64,000 bases of DNA, from the NCBI GenBank assembly GCA_947479535.1, contig CANJZQ010000002.1, positions 1 through 64,000 of the forward strand, in the 5' to 3' direction. Under the pieces are notes generated by a model. The model ran no database searches. It saw only the letters and a list, made by a program, of their open reading frames with translations, and was not told the DNA's origin. Below, one piece after another: positions 44,243 through 59,297 of the stretch. The translations under genes were made by a program, and so were the position numbers. Numbering within the stretch: the first letter of the stretch is position 1; each line of letters opens with the position of its first letter. The DNA is from Oligoflexales bacterium (GTDB lineage: Bacteria > Bdellovibrionota_B > Oligoflexia > Oligoflexales > RGVZ01).

Positions 44243-44351
44243 GGATCCTTCGCATTCGCTCAGGATGACGGTTTTACCCACGATGACGGTTATGCCCAGG
44301 ATGACGGTTATGCCCAGGATGACGGTTTTACCCAGGATGACGGGGTTGCGA
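44243..44351. repeat. Tandem 18-bp repeat array with GATCC...AGGATGACG head
   Basis: GGATCCTTCGC...CGCTCAGGATGACG opens the array, then five 18-bp units AGGATGACGGTTTTACCC (with small variations at 44280, 44298, 44316 and 44334) follow without spacers. The head resembles that of the second array at 59188-59297. It lies upstream of the lipoprotein gene, between it and the zinc-ribbon gene. Confidence 0.9.
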
Positions 44352-44544: not shown

Positions 44545-44850
44545 ATGAAGAAACCGCTGACGTATAACGAGAATGTGTACTTCTTTCAGCGCGACCGCGA
44601 GCTCATCCACGAGATGGATGAAAAACGGCGCCAGGTGGAGCACAGGCGTGAAATGCACAATCACGTCGGTCATTGCACTGCCTGCGGAGAAGACACCATC
44701 GAGGTAACATTGGAGGCGGCCCACATGCACGTCTGCCCATGCTGCCACGGTGTGTTTCTGGAGGGAGAGGCAGTGTCGGATCTGCTCCGGCGCGACGCCG
44801 TAAACATGGTGACCGGAGGAAAGCGAAGGAGACGAAACAATGCCGCATAA
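44545..44850 (+). CDS. Zinc-ribbon (TFIIB-type zinc finger) protein
   Basis: The 101-aa protein has two Cys pairs in the order HCTACGEDTIEVTLEAAHMHVCPCCHGVFLEGEAVSDLL, the compact bacterial zf-TFIIB-like ribbon. The N-terminus is charged and helical, the C-terminus basic (GGKRRRRNNAA), which may bind nucleic acid. AAGGAGG lies twelve bases upstream of the ATG. It is alone on the plus strand beside hemH. Function is unknown. Confidence 0.75.
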   Translation: MKKPLTYNENVYFFQRDRELIHEMDEKRRQVEHRREMHNHVGHCTACGEDTIEVTLEAAHMHVCPCCHGVFLEGEAVSDLLRRDAVNMVTGGKRRRRNNAA

Positions 44851-44891: not shown

Positions 44892-45938
44892 TCAAAATCC
44901 ATGGTCAACGAGCGTCTGGTGCAGGCAATGCGCCAGACGCTCGTCGGCGTTTGGAACACCGACGCGATGCCAACCCGAAAAGCCAGCCTTTGCGGCATCA
45001 GCTTTGTAGGTCACATCCATTTCGTAGAGGGTTTCAATGTGATCTGAAACAAAACTCACCGGCACCATGACCAGCTGTCCGCCGCGCTCGCGACCAAGGC
45101 GGGCAATCATTTCTTCCGTATAAGGCTTCAACCATTCCACCGGACCGACGCGCGACTGAAAAGAAAGTTCAAAGGCCACGTCAACATCGCGAGGGACCCA
45201 CTTCAAGGCTCGCGCACGCAGTTCAGCAAAGTGGGCGCGGATTTCGTGAGGATAAGGATCGGCACGGCGGATGTATTTTGCTGGCAATCCGTGGGCGGAA
45301 AAAAGAACAGTAATGCGCTTGTTGTCAGATTTTTTGGCCGCCGCCAAAGCTGGCTCCATTGAGGCCTTCAAAAGGTCCCAGGAATAATCCAGGTAATCAC
45401 GCTGAAACCACCAGGACGCAATGCGGGTCATCGCCATCCGTCCCTCATGTTCGTCCCCGTGACAAAGGCGCCATGCCTTATCAAAATCGAACATGGAACT
45501 GCCAGCCGTTGCATGGGAAAAATGCGGATAAAGAGTCAACAGAAACACCCGCCGCGATTCCCGCGGATCGAAATGACGAACGACTTCCCCGGCACGCGGT
45601 GCCGTATAGCGGTTGATCACGTGAACTCGCGTCTTGGGGCGAACTTCGCGTAATTTTTTTTCCAGCAGTCGCGCCTGGATTTCCGTGTATCGATTGATCG
45701 GAGAATAGCCAATGGCGCGGTACTGGGCGTCAGACTTGGGCACGCGGCGGCGCGCAATAAATCGGCCAAGCATTTTGCGCAAAAACTCTGGAAGTAAAAC
45801 GCGCAGGATAAAGGGATCTTCAAAAAGCTCAGTCAAAAAAGGTTCGACTTCCGCACTCGATGTTGGTCCACCAAAATGCAGCAGAAACACATCGTTCTGA
45901 ATCTCGTCCCAATGAGCGCCAGGAAGATCACCGGCCAT
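44892..45938 (-). CDS. hemH: Ferrochelatase
   Basis: I start at ATG 45938 (MAGDLPGAHWDEIQND), which lies inside the last codons of the ferredoxin gene; the ORF-track start is seven codons earlier. Family signatures are LLHFGGPTS, FSAHGLPAKYI (metal-site His) and FVSDHIETLYEMD (catalytic Glu). It inserts iron into protoporphyrin IX to make heme, at the inner membrane face. It overlaps the ferredoxin gene, which directly follows the B12-binding regulator, so the three are likely one operon. Confidence 0.95.
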   Translation of the reverse strand: MAGDLPGAHWDEIQNDVFLLHFGGPTSSAEVEPFLTELFEDPFILRVLLPEFLRKMLGRFIARRRVPKSDAQYRAIGYSPINRYTEIQARLLEKKLREVRPKTRVHVINRYTAPRAGEVVRHFDPRESRRVFLLTLYPHFSHATAGSSMFDFDKAWRLCHGDEHEGRMAMTRIASWWFQRDYLDYSWDLLKASMEPALAAAKKSDNKRITVLFSAHGLPAKYIRRADPYPHEIRAHFAELRARALKWVPRDVDVAFELSFQSRVGPVEWLKPYTEEMIARLGRERGGQLVMVPVSFVSDHIETLYEMDVTYKADAAKAGFSGWHRVGVPNADERLAHCLHQTLVDHGF

Positions 45939-46239
45939 CAGGAAGCGCCTCCACAGCATCGGTCAGTGCTTGTGCCAGCAGTGCGTGGTCGTCCTGCTTG
46001 AGTTGTGTGAACCAGCGACCTTCCGGGTAAAGAACTGCCGTGATCCCGCGCTTGCAATGGCCCAGGCAACCAGACGAATTGACGCGGACGCGCCCCTTCC
46101 ATTCCGGGTGAGTTTCCTTGGACCAATTTTTCAAGCCGTCGCGCAGCTTTTGAGAATCCTTGCTGCCACAATTCTCGCCGGCGCCCTTTTGATTGGTGCA
46201 GATGAACAAGTGGGCTTCGAGTTTATTTTCAGAATTCAC
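45928..46239 (-). CDS. Thioredoxin-like 2Fe-2S ferredoxin
   Basis: The 103-aa protein has HLFICTNQKGAGENCGSKDSQKL and VNSSGCLGHCKRGITAVLYPEG, which supply the four Cys ligands of the thioredoxin-fold 2Fe-2S ferredoxin family. Partner unknown. It starts three bases after the regulator stop and overlaps hemH by 11 bases, suggesting a role in heme or iron metabolism. Confidence 0.9.
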   Translation of the reverse strand: MNSENKLEAHLFICTNQKGAGENCGSKDSQKLRDGLKNWSKETHPEWKGRVRVNSSGCLGHCKRGITAVLYPEGRWFTQLKQDDHALLAQALTDAVEALPDGR

Positions 46240-46241
46240 GC

Positions 46242-47261
46242 CTACTCCGCGAGTCTGTCTGTGTTTGCCTGCGTGCGATTGCCGAGCTTCTGCAGGTGGC
46301 TGTCGAGATCATGCAAGCTCCGGATATACCTTATCGTCCTGGCTCCGTCATCTGCTGCCACCTGATTGAGGTCGCATTCCAGAGCGCCGCCAACCCAAAG
46401 CTCGATTCCAGCCGGCATTAAACGGTCAAGTTCACGCAAGTAGTCCGCCTGTTCCGAGCCTTGCATCTTGCGGCTCAGCACGGCCGTGCGCCCGACAAGA
46501 ACTGCCGAACTCCGCAGGATCCCAGCGGCTTCGGCCAAGGGTTTCGCGGGCAAGTTGGGTCCCAGATACTGACATCGAATTCCATAGGCAGAGCACAGGA
46601 CCGCACTCATGAGGATGCCAAACTCGTGCAGGTCACCGTCTTGGGTTGCCAGAGTCACGCTATAATCACCACCGGTTGACTCATCCGAAAGACCGCCCCC
46701 GTTTCGCAGGGAAAAAATAATTTCACCCAGCTGCAACTTCAAAATCGCTGAAAATGCATGTTCCTGGGCAATCGAGAGCTTTCCGGCCAACACGCGCTCT
46801 CCGATCATCACAACCAGAGGCAAGGCCACATCGAGGACAAACGAACGCGCGCTGTGCTGCACCTTGGCCCGGAGGAGCTCAGCGTGAAGCTTTTCCAACT
46901 CAAAGTTAGACAAGACATCAAGGACGCGACCGCAGCTTTCGGAAATGGCTTCTGGCGTCGTCACCAGCTTTCGAATTTTACCGGCCACGGGCTTTTGATC
47001 GTCTGATGCCTCTTTGCTGACTCGCCAGAGCAGAGAGCGAAGGTCTTCCTCGCTCATGCGCGCCAAGTTACTGATCGTGTGGCCATGGGTGACAAGTTGG
47101 CCGAGGATCCTGAGGCGTTCTGCCTCCCGAACGCTGTACATCCGGCGCCCGCTGGTCCCACGGACGGGCTTGATGACGCCGTAACGCCTCTCCCAGGCAC
47201 GCAGGGTGTGGGCATTGATGCCCGAAAATTTGACGACGGCTTTGATATTGAACTGTTCCAA
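46242..47261 (-). CDS. MerR-family regulator with B12-binding domain (CarH/LitR-like)
   Basis: No ATG fits, so I use TTG 47261 (MEQFNIKAVVKFSGINAHTLRAWERR), with GGGGGAAT upstream; the ORF-track start adds 74 unlikely residues. The MerR helix-turn-helix covers residues 1-70. The cap helices follow, with AQEHAF (EH at about residues 167-168). The B12-binding Rossmann fold has the DxHxxG motif DLHEFG (His212). Such proteins bind adenosylcobalamin and repress promoters in the dark; light breaks the complex. The Trp of the photosensing W-x9-EH motif is Val here, so light response is doubtful. It heads an operon with the ferredoxin and hemH. Confidence 0.88.
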   Translation of the reverse strand: MEQFNIKAVVKFSGINAHTLRAWERRYGVIKPVRGTSGRRMYSVREAERLRILGQLVTHGHTISNLARMSEEDLRSLLWRVSKEASDDQKPVAGKIRKLVTTPEAISESCGRVLDVLSNFELEKLHAELLRAKVQHSARSFVLDVALPLVVMIGERVLAGKLSIAQEHAFSAILKLQLGEIIFSLRNGGGLSDESTGGDYSVTLATQDGDLHEFGILMSAVLCSAYGIRCQYLGPNLPAKPLAEAAGILRSSAVLVGRTAVLSRKMQGSEQADYLRELDRLMPAGIELWVGGALECDLNQVAADDGARTIRYIRSLHDLDSHLQKLGNRTQANTDRLAE

Positions 47262-47276
47262 GTCGAGATTCCCCCG

Positions 47277-47349
47277 ATTGTCTAATATTTCATGTTTTTT
47301 CTTAGACAATTCGGAATGTTTATAGACAAACCGGCAGAATCTGTCTAAC
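47277..47349. promoter_or_regulatory. Four TGTCTA half-sites in the divergent promoter region
   Basis: ATTGTCTAA (47277) and TTAGACAAT (47302) form a perfect inverted repeat; TATAGACAAA (47321) and CTGTCTAAC (47341) add two more. On the minus strand TTGTCT (47309-47304) and TATTAG (47287-47282), 16 bases apart, form a plausible promoter of the regulator overlapping the first pair. They probably bind the B12/MerR protein, giving autoregulation. Confidence 0.5.
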
Positions 47350-47372
47350 TCTGTTTCAAAGGAGGATTCTTC

Positions 47373-47912
47373 ATGAAGACCAGAATTTTCAAAAGTTTTG
47401 CAATTGCGGTGATCGCTTTTTTTGCGGTTGCAGGATCTCAGGCCATGGCCACCCCACCGGCTGAAGGCAGTGTCGTTGCCCAAGGCGGCGTATTCTACAA
47501 GATGCCGTCTGGCGAGATGGTCTTGCGGGATGCAACATTAGAAGTACCAGCGCGCGGCGAAGGCAAGGTTGTCCTGCGCAGCGGCCTGATTGAAATGACG
47601 GCCCACGGCTTCAAAACGGTGCACAGCCACGGCCGTGCGATTTTCTACGTCGTGTTCCTCGATCCTCCGGGAGCTCCAGAAAACACAGCCGTTGTGTACC
47701 GCGGTTCGTACCTTCGCGGCAGCAACGCAGCGAACTTCTGGGGTGATGTTTTCATCCAGACCTTCAGCAACCGCGCGGAGCTTTCTGACTTGACCAAAAA
47801 TCCCGGCGTTGACGCCCTCGTTTCTGACCTTGAAAACAGCAACGACGACGGCAAGGAATGGAAACACGGCGGCGGATTCTGGTTTAATACCAAAATCGGC
47901 GAAGCCAACTGA
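47373..47912 (+). CDS. Secreted protein of unknown function
   Basis: The 179-aa protein begins with a strong signal peptide (MKTRIFKSFAIAVIAFFAVAGSQAMA) cleaved near ATPPAE. The mature part is rich in strands (GGVFYKMPSGEMVLRDATLEVP, KVVLRSGLIEMTAHGFKTVHSHGRAIFYVVF) and looks soluble. No catalytic motif is visible. AAGGAGGA lies upstream of the ATG, and its promoter region carries the TGTCTA sites shared with the B12 regulator, so it may be a regulated target. A strong terminator follows. Confidence 0.75.
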   Translation: MKTRIFKSFAIAVIAFFAVAGSQAMATPPAEGSVVAQGGVFYKMPSGEMVLRDATLEVPARGEGKVVLRSGLIEMTAHGFKTVHSHGRAIFYVVFLDPPGAPENTAVVYRGSYLRGSNAANFWGDVFIQTFSNRAELSDLTKNPGVDALVSDLENSNDDGKEWKHGGGFWFNTKIGEAN

Positions 47913-47949
47913 TAATTACGTAAGTAATTGAAATAGAAGTAATTTTTAG

Positions 47950-47978
47950 CGGGAGGCTTCGGCCTCCCGTTTTTTTTC
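47950..47978 (+). terminator. Rho-independent terminator
   Basis: CGGGAGGC, a TTCG loop and GCCTCCCG form a perfect hairpin followed by eight T. It ends transcription of the secreted-protein gene. Confidence 0.95.
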
Positions 47979-53198: not shown

Positions 53199-53264
53199 TA
53201 TGAGTATTTTTGCCTTAAAGCAAAATAACTCATGAGTGTTTTGGCATGAAGGCATAAATACTCA
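53199..53264. promoter_or_regulatory. Double imperfect palindrome array upstream of the DUF4143 ATPase gene
   Basis: Two 34-bp imperfect palindromes sit side by side, sharing two bases. The first is ATGAGTATTTTTGCC, a TTAAA centre, then GCAAAATAACTCAT; the second ATGAGTGTTTTGGC, an ATGAAG centre, then GCATAAATACTCAT. Four related half-sites in alternating orientation suggest an operator for an autoregulating factor, or an element end. Confidence 0.7.
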
Positions 53265-53313
53265 TAATTGTTCAGAAAGGAACCAACGGCAGGCATCCGA
53301 ATTGCACCATCTC

Positions 53314-53342
53314 CCATCGGCTGCGCAAATTTTTCCCGATGG
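53314..53342 (+). promoter_or_regulatory. Hairpin just upstream of the kaiC start
   Basis: CCATCGG at 53314 pairs with CCGATGG at 53336 over a 15-base loop. The 3' arm ends eight bases before the kaiC ATG and overlaps the only weak ribosome-site-like GGCGGA. It may restrain kaiC translation. Confidence 0.4.
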
Positions 53343-53349
53343 CGGACCC

Positions 53350-55113
53350 ATGACCAAGACCACAAAGAAAACGGCGAAAAACCTGACCGTGCCCATCCGA
53401 TCTATTCGTGGATCAGGCCTTGATAAGGCCCCGACTGGTATTGCTGGTTTTGACGAGATCACTTTCGGAGGTCTGCCCCGAAATCGTCCAACCCTCATTT
53501 GCGGCGGACCGGGATCTGGAAAAACCTTGTTCGGATTGGAATTCCTCGCGCGGGGCATTACAGAGCATGGCGAGCCGGGCGTGTTCGTGTCGTTTGAGGA
53601 AACGGAAGAAGAACTCGCAAAAAACGTCAAGTCTTTGGGTCTGGACCTGCCAGATCTGATCGCCAAAAAAAAACTTGTCATTGATACTTTGCGGGTCGAC
53701 CGTGAAGATTACCTGGAAACGGGTGACTACGATCTCGGCGGCCTGTTTATCCGCGTTGGCTGCGCCATTGATTCCATCGGCGCCAAACGGATCGTTTTGG
53801 ACTCGATGGAAGCGCTGTTTTCTGGCCTGACCGATCACATGCGGCTGCGCAGCGAAATCCACCGCCTGTTCCTTTGGCTGAAAGACAAAGGCGTCACAGC
53901 CATTGTCACCGGCGAAAGCATTGAACCATCCGGCAAAACCCGCGAGGGTCTGGAAGAATTTATTTCCGACTGCGTGGTTTATCTGGACCATCGCGTCAAC
54001 GACACCATCAGCACCCGCCGCCTCAGAATCACCAAGTACCGGGGTTCGTTTCACGGTACAAACGAATACCCTTTCATGATCGATGAAAGCGGAATCTGCG
54101 TCCTCCCTGTGACGTCGCTGAACCTGACTTACAAGGCATCCACGGAACGGGTGAGCACAGGCATAGCCAGCCTTGACGGGATGCTTGGTGGCAAAGGCTA
54201 TTACCGTGGATCCTCCGTTCTGGTAACCGGCACGGCAGGATCGGGTAAGACCAGCGTTGGCGCCCATTTCATCCATGCGGCATCCCGACGCGGGGAGAGG
54301 TGCCTGATGTGGTCCTTCGAAGAATCAGAATCCCAAATCGTGCGTAACATGCGTTCCATTGGGATCGACCTTGAGCCGTCAATCAAAGCTGGGTCGCTAA
54401 AGATCCTTACCAGTCGTCCCCAGATTTTCGGCCTCGAAATGCATCTAGGCATCATCCACAAAGAGATCAACGCCTTTGATCCAAAGTGCATTTGCATTGA
54501 CCCCGTAAGTAATTTCACCGGCGCTGGAACGATGAGCGAAACGAAGGTCATGCTGACGCGTCTAGTTGACCTGACGAAATCAAAAGGAATCACGACCATC
54601 ATGACGTATCTGATCCGCGGCGGGATGCCCGCGGAAACAACAGATGCGGGTGTCAGTTCACTGATGGACACTTGGATTGTGTTGAGTGACCCCGAATTTA
54701 ATGGCGAGCGGAACCGGATCCTTTCAGTCTTGAAATCCAGAGGCATGCCACACTCGAATCAAATGCGAGAGATGTTGTTGACATCCCACGGCGTGGAACT
54801 GATTTTCCCCTATTTGGGCCCATCTGGGGCCGTTACGGGTGCCGCACGAAAATCCCTAGAAGCCAGCGAAAAGGCACTCTCCGTTGCACAGCAAATCAAA
54901 ATCATGAAGAAGAAAAAAGACTTTGAGAGCAGCAGGGACCTGATTGAAGCCAAGATCAAAATGATGCGGTCACGCCTTCAATCCCAAGAGCAGGCCATCG
55001 CCCTTGAACTTTCACAGGCCAAAACGCGGGATGATGTGAAAACGGAAGAAAGGTCAAGGATGGGCGCAACCCGGGCGCCTGCACCGGATCAAAAGGCACA
55101 GGAGCTGCGATGA
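53350..55113 (+). CDS. kaiC: KaiC family circadian-clock-type ATPase/kinase
   Basis: I start at ATG 53350 ([21 protein letters not shown]); the ORF-track start is 38 codons earlier. The 587-aa protein has two RecA-like domains. CI has [16 protein letters not shown] (about residue 52) and the catalytic Glu pair [13 protein letters not shown] has [14 protein letters not shown] (about residue 293) and [10 protein letters not shown]. The phosphosite loop reads [13 protein letters not shown], with two Ser (about 436-437) where the cyanobacterial clock protein has Ser-Thr. A charged helical tail follows (about 530-587). Its stop overlaps kaiB1 by ATGA. No kaiA is nearby. Confidence 0.95.
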
Positions 55114-55424: not shown

Positions 55425-55792
55425 AAAAAAACACAGGTAAACCGATAACAGCAACCGATAAATTCGAGGCCTTCGATAAAGGCCCAGATAATCGCGTTTA
55501 CGTCCTTCGACTGTACGTCCATGGCATGGCTCAGCGGTCGACCGTTGCCATCGCAGCGATCGAAAAAGTCTGCAACCGACATCTGCACGGGCGCTTTACC
55601 CTTGAAGTTATTGACATCACCATGCACCCAAATATCGCCATGGATGACGATGTCGTTGCCATTCCCATGCTGGAGAAAATCCTTCCCTTGCCAAAGCGAC
55701 GCATGGTCGGTGACCTGTCAGACGAGGAAAAAGTCCTACGCCTGCTTGAATTGAAAAAGGCGTTAACATTATCCCCCGAGGCAAAATCATGA
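55421..55792 (+). CDS. KaiB family clock protein, copy 2 (divergent)
   Basis: The 123-aa protein is a second KaiB with an N-terminal extension of about 25 residues ([20 protein letters not shown]). It keeps [23 protein letters not shown] and [38 protein letters not shown], but departs from canonical KaiB at several contact positions (for example GMAQRS for GNTPNS). It may bind a different KaiC state or surface. It overlaps its neighbours by ATGA on both sides. Confidence 0.9.
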
Positions 55793-58560
55793 CCTCTGAA
55801 GGATCGAGGCTGAGGCGCGAAATAAATCAACTCAAGGCAAAGGTTTGCGAGTTGACTGAGATCATCGACGCCATGACCACTGGATCTGCTGACGCGCTGG
55901 TGGTCAAACACCCCAGTGGCAGTCAAATCTATACCATCGAGGCGGCCAATGATGCCTACCGGATCATGATCGAAGAAATGAATGAAGGCGCCTTGTCCCT
56001 GAGCAAGGACGGCATCATTTTATACTGCAACCGCAGATTCACCGAAATTCTTCATATTCCACCGGGGCAATTGATCGGAAAAAACTTGATTGATCTGCTT
56101 GATCCTGCGACCGCCCCAATTTTCACTTCTCTTCTAGAGGACCGCGGAAACGAAGGCGGCCAGGGGCAGGTCGTCCTTCTTACGCTCGATGGCCGTAAAA
56201 TTCCTGCACTTCTTTCCTTGCGGCATGTTTTCCGCGAATCAAAAGAAATTATCTCTGTAATCATCACGGACCTGACCGCTCAAAAGCGAAACCGAGAGAT
56301 TGAAGCCGCGGCCTCCATGACCAATGTGATTTTGGATCAAGCTGGCGATGCCGTACTGGTGTGTGATCCGGAAGGCGTGATCATTCGGGCCAATCAAGCC
56401 GCGCAAAGCCTCGCCAAAAAAAACCCGCTTTTCAAAAAAATATCCGATGTGTTTGCGCTCGGAGTAAAACATACAGATTACGTGCGCGGTTTGGATGTCG
56501 AGCTTCCAACAAAAGCGGGCGAATCGAAGCATCATATGATGGTGTCGATCAGCCCGCTAACGAGCCCTGACAACCAATCCAAAAACATCGGAACAGTCGT
56601 GACAATGACAGACGTTAGTAAAATAAAGATCCATGAAGTCGAAGCGAAAAAAAGTCGTGATTTCTTGCGAACGACTCTTGGCAGTATTGGGGACGGCGTC
56701 GTCGCTACCAATGCCATGGGCATCATCACACTAATTAATCCTGTTGCTGCAAAAATTTGTCATTGTGCGCCTGAAGAAGCGCTTGGCATGCCGTTTAAGG
56801 AAGTCTTTAAAATCAGCTCCCATTCTGGCAATACCGATGTCAGAGACATTATCACCCAGGTTCTCGATGCTCGATCCGTTCTTACTTTGCCTGACAATTC
56901 TGAACTTCAGACAAAGAATGGCGCACTGATACCAATCGAGGATCACGCTGCACCAATTTTAGACGACTCTGGTAAAATCACCGGTGTCGTACTGACGTTC
57001 AGGGATGTGACCGAAAAGCGGAAGGCATTCTCGCGGCTTGCAAAAAGCGAGGAGCTTCTCAATCAAGCGCAACATATCGCCCAACTTGGAAGTTGGCACT
57101 GGGATGTAAAGACCGGGACGTTTACAGGATCCAGTGAATTCCAACGCCTATTTGGAGTTAACCCTGAGTTGCAGGAGCCACAGGGAATCTGGGCTCAACT
57201 GGAGGTGTTAAGAAAGAAGTCAATGGAGAGCGGAGAGGGCTACGCAACTGAATTGGAAGGCACGCTCCGCAACAACGCTGGATCCGGAACATCCACTTGG
57301 GTGAAGTGCCACGGGGAACTTGAAAGAGATGTTTCTGGTCAGATCATCGGCATGAGCGGAACGGTGCAGGACATTACTGAACTCAAAAAAATCGAGATTG
57401 AATTAAATTGCGCCAAAAAAGGGGCCGAGGAAGCCAACAAATTGAAAAGCGAATTTCTGGCTTTGATGAGCCATGAGATCAGAACTCCGGTAACTGCAAT
57501 TTTAGGGTTCTCGGAACTCGTGACCAATCCAGAAGAGACTTTAGAAGAAAGGAAATCCTACAGCGAACGGATTCGTCGCAATGGCGAGCACCTTTTGCGC
57601 CTTATCGACGATATCCTTGATCTTTCTAAAATAGAGGTCGGCAGGATGGAGATCGACAGCGTTCACGTCAACATCCATGAAACTGTTAGTGACGTTTTTA
57701 CGACGCTACTTCCATTGGCCAGTGCGAAGGGGCTCCAACTCAGCCTGACGATGGACCCGTCTTTGCCGGTATCCTTCATGACTGACCGGACACGACTCCG
57801 TCAGATTCTGAGTAACATCATCGGAAACGCGATTAAATTTACCCGCGATGGATCGGTGAGGGTGAGGGTATCTGCAAGCGATGTCGATAAAAAGCTGCAC
57901 ATAATCGTGACCGACACTGGAATTGGCCTTACGGACACGCAGGCACGGGGTATTTTTCAATTGTTTATTCAGGGCGATTCGTCAATCACACGGAAATACG
58001 GCGGCACAGGGCTCGGGCTGGCCCTCTCCAGAAAACTGGCCCAGGCACTTGGCGGTGACGTCATCCTGGCTGAATACCGCGGAGTTGCCGAACCAAATCA
58101 CGGATGTACCTTTGAGATCACGATTGCCATGACCGACGCAACGTACCAGGAGAAACCTGCCCCAGTGAGTGCACGCAAGCAGCCATCGTCAAACCTTGAC
58201 GGGATCAAAGTGCTCGTCGTCGAAAGTAATCCTGAACTGCAATACTTGATTAACAGGTATGTAACAACTTCGGGAGGAATTGTGGATCTCGCCTCCAGTG
58301 GCGAGGACGGCGTGGTCATGGCTTTATCCGGTAATTATGATGCCGTGCTGATGGATATGTGGTTGCCCGTCATGAATGGGCGCGAAGCGACTCGGACCCT
58401 TCGAGCAAAGGGCTATAAAACACCCATCGTGGCGTTGACCAACGATGCCACACGAGATGAGGTAAACCTCTGTGAGGATGCCGGGTGCACTGCGTCCCTG
58501 CCAAAACCAATAAATAGAACAGATCTGGTGAGCATGATCGCCAAGATCGTTCGCCATTAG
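55789..58560 (+). CDS. Hybrid sensor histidine kinase with four PAS domains and C-terminal receiver
   Basis: The 923-aa protein starts with a coiled coil ([20 protein letters not shown]) and a GSADALVV...YTIEAANDAYRIMIEEMNEGAL segment. Four PAS domains follow (about residues 60-540). The HisKA motif LMSHEIRTPVTA has its His near residue 562; HATPase_c has NAIKFT, DTGIGL and YGGTGLGLALS. A receiver follows (about 804-920) with Asp in AVLMDMWLPVMNG and LPKP; its first acidic pair is ES rather than DD. No membrane helix is seen. The gene overlaps kaiB2 by ATGA, so it is the likely signalling partner of the Kai proteins. Confidence 0.93.
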   Translation: MTSEGSRLRREINQLKAKVCELTEIIDAMTTGSADALVVKHPSGSQIYTIEAANDAYRIMIEEMNEGALSLSKDGIILYCNRRFTEILHIPPGQLIGKNLIDLLDPATAPIFTSLLEDRGNEGGQGQVVLLTLDGRKIPALLSLRHVFRESKEIISVIITDLTAQKRNREIEAAASMTNVILDQAGDAVLVCDPEGVIIRANQAAQSLAKKNPLFKKISDVFALGVKHTDYVRGLDVELPTKAGESKHHMMVSISPLTSPDNQSKNIGTVVTMTDVSKIKIHEVEAKKSRDFLRTTLGSIGDGVVATNAMGIITLINPVAAKICHCAPEEALGMPFKEVFKISSHSGNTDVRDIITQVLDARSVLTLPDNSELQTKNGALIPIEDHAAPILDDSGKITGVVLTFRDVTEKRKAFSRLAKSEELLNQAQHIAQLGSWHWDVKTGTFTGSSEFQRLFGVNPELQEPQGIWAQLEVLRKKSMESGEGYATELEGTLRNNAGSGTSTWVKCHGELERDVSGQIIGMSGTVQDITELKKIEIELNCAKKGAEEANKLKSEFLALMSHEIRTPVTAILGFSELVTNPEETLEERKSYSERIRRNGEHLLRLIDDILDLSKIEVGRMEIDSVHVNIHETVSDVFTTLLPLASAKGLQLSLTMDPSLPVSFMTDRTRLRQILSNIIGNAIKFTRDGSVRVRVSASDVDKKLHIIVTDTGIGLTDTQARGIFQLFIQGDSSITRKYGGTGLGLALSRKLAQALGGDVILAEYRGVAEPNHGCTFEITIAMTDATYQEKPAPVSARKQPSSNLDGIKVLVVESNPELQYLINRYVTTSGGIVDLASSGEDGVVMALSGNYDAVLMDMWLPVMNGREATRTLRAKGYKTPIVALTNDATRDEVNLCEDAGCTASLPKPINRTDLVSMIAKIVRH

Positions 58561-59187: not shown

Positions 59188-59297
59188 AGATCCTTCGCTG
59201 CGCTCAGGATGACGACACACTCGTCAGGATGACGACACACTCGTCAGGATGACGATACACTCGTCAGGATGACGATACACTCGTCAGGATGACGACT
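59188..59297. repeat. Tandem 20-bp repeat array with GATCC...AGGATGACG head
   Basis: GATCCTTCGCTGCGCTCAGG leads into four complete and one partial 20-bp units TCAGGATGACGACACACTCG (59204, 59224, 59244, 59264, 59284). The last unit touches the stop of the following gene. The head resembles that of the array at 44243-44351. Confidence 0.9.

Follow-up and report, generated by a model that had tools for sequence, protein, structure and literature searches.

The locus described here lies in a 64-kb window, the whole stretch of DNA that was analysed, which comes from a 2.4-Mb Oligoflexales assembly (G000; 72 contigs, 90.65% complete), and it comprises three minus-strand genes that face a plus-strand gene across a short intergenic region. 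In the direction of transcription the minus-strand genes encode a predicted CarH/LitR-type MerR regulator (46242..47261; 339 aa, TTG start) with a MerR helix-turn-helix (HTH), a four-helix bundle and a Rossmann B12-type domain, a thioredoxin-like [2Fe-2S] ferredoxin (45928..46239; 103 aa, GTG start) with the cysteine pattern C-x9-C ... C-x3-C, and the ferrochelatase HemH (44892..45938; 348 aa). The carH start is best placed at the TTG at 47261 (L-EQFNIKAVVKFSG...), which matches the N-termini of relatives in the alignment; a start near 47349 was ruled out because the intergenic region has no in-frame ATG or GTG. Hence the initial annotation, which had assigned the unit to 45928-47349, was right about the three minus-strand genes but placed the regulator start too far upstream and missed the end of hemH at 44892. 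A weak relative of a zinc-ribbon gene, discussed below, lies just after hemH (44545-44850).

The three genes form a tightly coupled operon both in this genome and in its nearest relative, a sister species (G001) whose CarH protein is 91% identical. The carH stop (TAG, 46242-46244) is separated by a 2-nt gap from the ferredoxin GTG at 46239, and the most likely HemH start, the ATG at 45938, gives an 11-nt overlap with the ferredoxin stop (45928). In the sister species the carH stop and ferredoxin start overlap as ATGTGA and the 11-nt ferredoxin-hemH overlap is identical, indicating that the coupling has been kept though the flanking bases differ. Scans recovered no minus-strand terminator-like site at the carH/ferredoxin and ferredoxin/hemH junctions and no minus-strand promoter-like site inside the operon. 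The earlier proposal that the three genes are packed within a few bases or overlap as one unit is thereby borne out, and extends to the second species. On the other side of the 111-bp divergent intergenic region (47262..47372), presumed to be a bidirectional operator-promoter, lies a plus-strand gene (47373..47912; 179 aa, with a signal peptide recognized by eye) that is a putative second target and is followed by a strong intrinsic-terminator-like stem-loop (47948..47971, plus strand, terminator scan). Its secreted or exported product is 96% identical between the two species, matches no known family by sequence, and yielded a low-confidence fold model with no significant fold match. An Rfam scan of the 64-kb window found neither a riboswitch nor any other RNA family.

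Profile searches with the regulator recovered the Pfam MerR_1 domain as an N-terminal winged HTH above its cut-off (E = 6.4e-13), together with the B12-binding_2 (four-helix) and B12-binding (Rossmann) domains (E = 1.8e-4), both of which are present despite scores below the Pfam gathering thresholds (22.1 of 23 and 21.8 of 32.1). Its best match by sequence among solved structures is Thermus CarH/LitR (E = 3e-16), and all the top matches of its fold model are likewise CarH, even though the model is of low confidence (mean pLDDT 59). The NCBIfam CarH equivalog NF052513 scores 79.1 bits, below the curated cut-off of 400. Judged by its sequence, the protein is a MerR regulator of the CarH/LitR type, and its Rossmann domain with GxxH sets it outside the class II LitR proteins. 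Alignment to Thermus CarH shows that the lower cobalt ligand His177 in GxxH is kept (GDLHEFG against GERHEIG), as are E141-H142 (AQEH) and GxxxP (GPNLP). The position of Trp131 is instead occupied by valine (GERV in place of GxxW) and that of His132 by leucine. The published light signature consists of GxxW, EH, GxxH and GxxxP (PMC11796333), so with valine in GxxW the regulator fails one of the four elements. In CarH, Trp131 contacts the adenosyl group (PMC8221060), and His132 is the light-state ligand needed for breakup of the tetramer (PMC10442372). The initial reading of the protein as cobalamin-sensing thus holds for its type, lower-ligand histidine, EH and GxxxP, and does not hold for Trp131, His132 and the GxxW signature; that light or adenosylcobalamin is the signal we regard as a possibility falling a little short of an even call.

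A tree and alignment of the regulator and its relatives revealed that all 17 clade members from the order lack the Trp131 equivalent, which the four outgroup proteins possess. Nearly every member of this Trp-less clade retains EH and His177. The missing Trp131 cap can be followed across the CarH-like branch (loci L030-L045) with the lower-ligand histidine kept, and two of these loci (L040, L042) also lack the EH glutamate. Six of the Trp-less relatives adjoin folE, and in another genome of the same genus (G002, L034:684-6045) the CarH relative is accompanied by genes for a photolyase, GTP cyclohydrolase I (folE), a SOUL haem-binding protein and an epimerase-type protein, a locus that by its gene content appears to be a compact light-type regulon. 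LitR of Pseudomonas controls genes of the folE and photolyase kind (PMC9758184). From the folE, photolyase and SOUL neighbours we infer that the Trp-less proteins probably continue to serve as regulators of light regulons, acting through a changed B12 mode or a partner. As a separate observation, in family f8 (L033, L035, L036 and L037) genes for a small zinc-ribbon protein and a heavy-metal P-type ATPase lie a few kb from CarH paralogues, and it is this zinc-ribbon gene whose weak relative follows hemH in the window.

The divergent intergenic region contains four copies of the hexamer TAGACA or its complement TGTCTA. Box 1 (47279..47284) and box 4 (47342..47347) read TAGACA on the minus strand (TGTCTA on the plus strand), whereas box 2 (47303..47308) and box 3 (47323..47328) read TAGACA on the plus strand. 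By eye, box 1 overlaps a candidate carH -10 element (TATTAG, 47287-47282) and box 2 a candidate -35 element (TTGTCT, 47309-47304), the two elements being 16 nt apart; a consensus promoter scan flagged no promoter here, since it accepts a second hexamer only if that ends in T and so does not list TATTAG. Comparison of the two species showed identity at 24/24 box bases and 44/75 linker bases (Fisher p = 2.5e-5), and shuffling the intergenic sequence 20,000 times never produced four boxes. The 64-kb window as a whole contains 7 copies of the hexamer, against 8.7 expected from dinucleotide shuffles. A search of the 2.4-Mb assembly for exact paired boxes (5-30 nt apart, any orientation, three patterns) matched here only, whereas reversed control patterns had matches in the same assembly; by this measure no regulon was found elsewhere in the genome, nor were boxes found near its photolyase or hemB loci. 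This restriction of paired boxes to the carH promoter region suggests that the four boxes are a candidate operator that is probably private and autoregulatory, and that also faces the secreted-protein gene. The stretch at 47270-47350 to which the initial annotation had pointed as regulator-binding DNA therefore contains a probable operator, with conserved boxes that are paired only here in the genome.

Upstream of other CarH relatives the TAGACA hexamer occurs as pairs in G008, G052 and Comamonas and singly in Azoarcus and Caballeronia, where the single copies are not significant on their own. These hexamers in distant relatives fit binding of the boxes by a CarH-type MerR protein, which they support without proving. 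Within the order an exact upstream box is missing for most other CarH relatives, and the nearest ones, G002, G016 and G038, are among these. Taken together, we consider it quite likely that the boxes and the operon form one regulatory unit of the CarH-like regulator. That a second regulator binds the boxes, with the CarH-like protein acting elsewhere or on other sites, strikes us as very improbable: the boxes do differ from the direct repeats of Thermus thermophilus CarH and from the TGTACA-N12-TGTACA site of Pseudomonas, and the nearest CarH relatives lack an exact box upstream, but the array lies where the regulator gene has its own promoter region, the genome has no further site with exactly paired boxes, and several CarH relatives from another phylum also carry this hexamer upstream.

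HemH is assigned with 225 bits to TIGR00109 (cut-off 124.6), and its catalytic histidine and glutamate motifs (LFSAHGLP and SDHIETLYE) align to ferrochelatase structures. It is the single ferrochelatase detected in this genome, and likewise in the sister species, while none was detected in the assemblies of G002 and G003, which are about 90% complete. Five of the six genomes of the sister genus carry another HemH type, and in the HemH tree the proteins of our two species group with those of f8 and G011, away from their own family, which indicates that the gene has been replaced, transferred or differentially lost. HemB is encoded on another contig of the genome, so haem synthesis is not gathered at this locus. 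The ferredoxin has all four cysteines, matches PDB: 5abr and 1f37 (E = 5e-7), and matches NCBIfam fdxn_Clost at E = 5e-11, below the equivalog cut-off. With regard to cofactor supply, the genome encodes methylmalonyl-CoA mutase with MeaB, an IcmF-like protein and MetH. The two mutases, namely methylmalonyl-CoA mutase and the IcmF-like protein, use adenosylcobalamin, and this cofactor is therefore likely to be present in the cell.

In a search of 56 relatives plus a phylum set of 58 genomes, neither of which revealed a widespread version of it, the carH-ferredoxin-hemH arrangement was found only in these two species, and carH is not linked to any of 28 other HemH loci or 22 other ferredoxin loci at their flanks. 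In wider phyla, covered through plasmid records only, the three CarH relatives inspected all lie beside other genes. CarH/LitR regulation is known for carotenoid, photolyase, folE and fatty-acid genes, and in the literature searched we found no paper on point that ties CarH or LitR to hemH. In some Pseudomonas, presumably only a few genes separate hemH from photolyase and genes of the LitR type; if so, the novelty of a link between a CarH-type regulator and hemH would be lowered.

These observations can be brought together in a model in which the CarH/LitR-type repressor would bind the four TAGACA/TGTCTA boxes between its own gene and the divergent secreted-protein gene, and would thereby repress its own carH-ferredoxin-hemH operon and probably the divergent gene too. 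Derepression, triggered either when light acts on the bound cobalamin or when adenosylcobalamin is lost, would raise the levels of ferredoxin and ferrochelatase, the former probably serving the chelatase step as electron donor (Fe3+ to Fe2+) or through iron-sulfur chemistry, so that protoporphyrin would be turned into haem when it might otherwise act as a photosensitizer. On this reading, a local repressor of the light/B12-regulon type has been rewired onto the sole hemH, plausibly limiting photosensitizing protoporphyrin in the light. Loss of hemH in Myxococcus strengthens the response to light by way of protoporphyrin (PMC8156234), and the presence of hemH2 along with photolyases in the Shewanella RpoE2 regulon is a precedent for a ferrochelatase in a photo-oxidative regulon (PMC4336711). 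The initial annotation had reasoned from the pathway shared by cobalamin and haem; we find this rationale weaker than one based on light, given that relatives of the regulator adjoin folE, in one case with photolyase and SOUL, and that the substrate of HemH is itself photosensitizing. The model as a whole, a CarH-type repressor on these boxes that is released by light or adenosylcobalamin and raises ferredoxin and ferrochelatase against a photosensitizer, we judge to be evenly poised. Counting against it are the loss of Trp131 and His132, the NF052513 score (79 against 400), a linkage confined to two species with CarH proteins 91% identical, an operator unlike that of Thermus, the boxless nearest relatives and photolyase locus, and the failure of the scan to flag a promoter.

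The same losses bear on whether the regulator is a photoswitch at all. It might be a real repressor of the operon that senses cobalamin, or haem or protoporphyrin, through the histidine on the Rossmann side, or one that is ligand-free like M. xanthus CarA and released by a partner protein. That Val-Leu replaces Trp131-His132 while the lower-ligand histidine, EH and GxxxP are kept would fit such a protein, as would the tetrapyrrole made by the operon product; CarA needs no B12 for repression (PMC8156234), and class II LitR operates via a LOV partner (PMC9758184). Retention of EH and His177 in nearly the whole clade nevertheless agrees with cobalamin binding, light-type genes adjoin members of this Trp-less clade, and no direct evidence points to another ligand, and we accordingly rate such a non-photoswitching repressor as somewhat unlikely. 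More speculative, and in our view unlikely, is the proposal that the Trp131/His132-less branch is a new sensor type, with another upper ligand or with haem or porphyrin in the B12 fold, that in two species would gate the sole ferrochelatase and hence the last step of haem synthesis. Alternatively, hemH might be a passenger transcribed mostly from an internal promoter, the regulator controlling only itself and the divergent secreted gene. A HemH type unlike that of the sister genus and undetected in G002 and G003 may mean that the arrangement is recent, and an essential sole ferrochelatase would need basal expression; set against these, both species retain overlapping starts and stops, and scans found neither minus-strand terminators at the junctions nor minus-strand promoter-like sites within the operon. 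We consider the passenger reading less probable still.

In comparison with known systems, the regulator shares with Thermus thermophilus CarH/class I LitR (PDB: 5C8D-F and 3WHP) the order of MerR HTH, four-helix bundle and Rossmann B12 domain, the lower-ligand histidine, the EH pair, GxxH and GxxxP, and a divergent promoter region as the presumed site of the operator. It differs in lacking Trp131 and His132, in having inverted boxes as candidate operator rather than the reported 11-bp direct repeats (PMC8156234), and in its predicted target, ferredoxin-ferrochelatase instead of carotenoid genes. With class II LitR, the PplR-PmlR proteins of Pseudomonas (regulon phr, folE, cryB), the similarity lies in the relatives from the order that adjoin folE, one of them with photolyase, and in the paired hexamers, whose spacers are 13-18 nt here and 12 nt in Pseudomonas; those proteins are without a Rossmann B12 domain, have a short LOV partner and use TGTACA sites (PMC9758184), unlike the Rossmann domain and TAGACA boxes found here. 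The Shewanella RpoE2-ChrR regulon (pgpD-hemH2) likewise places a ferrochelatase gene in a photo-oxidative or oxidative stress circuit with photolyases (PMC4336711), but through an ECF sigma factor rather than a MerR/B12 protein; moreover, the HemH there is a second paralogue, whereas here it is the only one. If the light-released repressor model is correct, a B12-type light sensor would govern how protoporphyrin, a photosensitizer, is passed on to haem in a cell that has a single ferrochelatase, and a CarH branch in which the cobalt ligand is retained without the presumed light-switch residues would provide a direct test of the role of those residues.

Elsewhere in the window the gene for a two-domain KaiC-type ATPase (53236-55113, plus strand) precedes one for a large hybrid of PAS histidine kinase and response regulator (55789-58560, plus strand), in which a LOV cysteine motif was looked for and is absent. 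Here, then, a KaiC from outside the cyanobacteria has a kinase next to it. Two intergenic tandem arrays (44261-44343, 18 bp x 4.6; 59204-59296, 20 bp x 4.7) have the common core CAGGATGACG and perhaps represent a dispersed repeat family of the genome.
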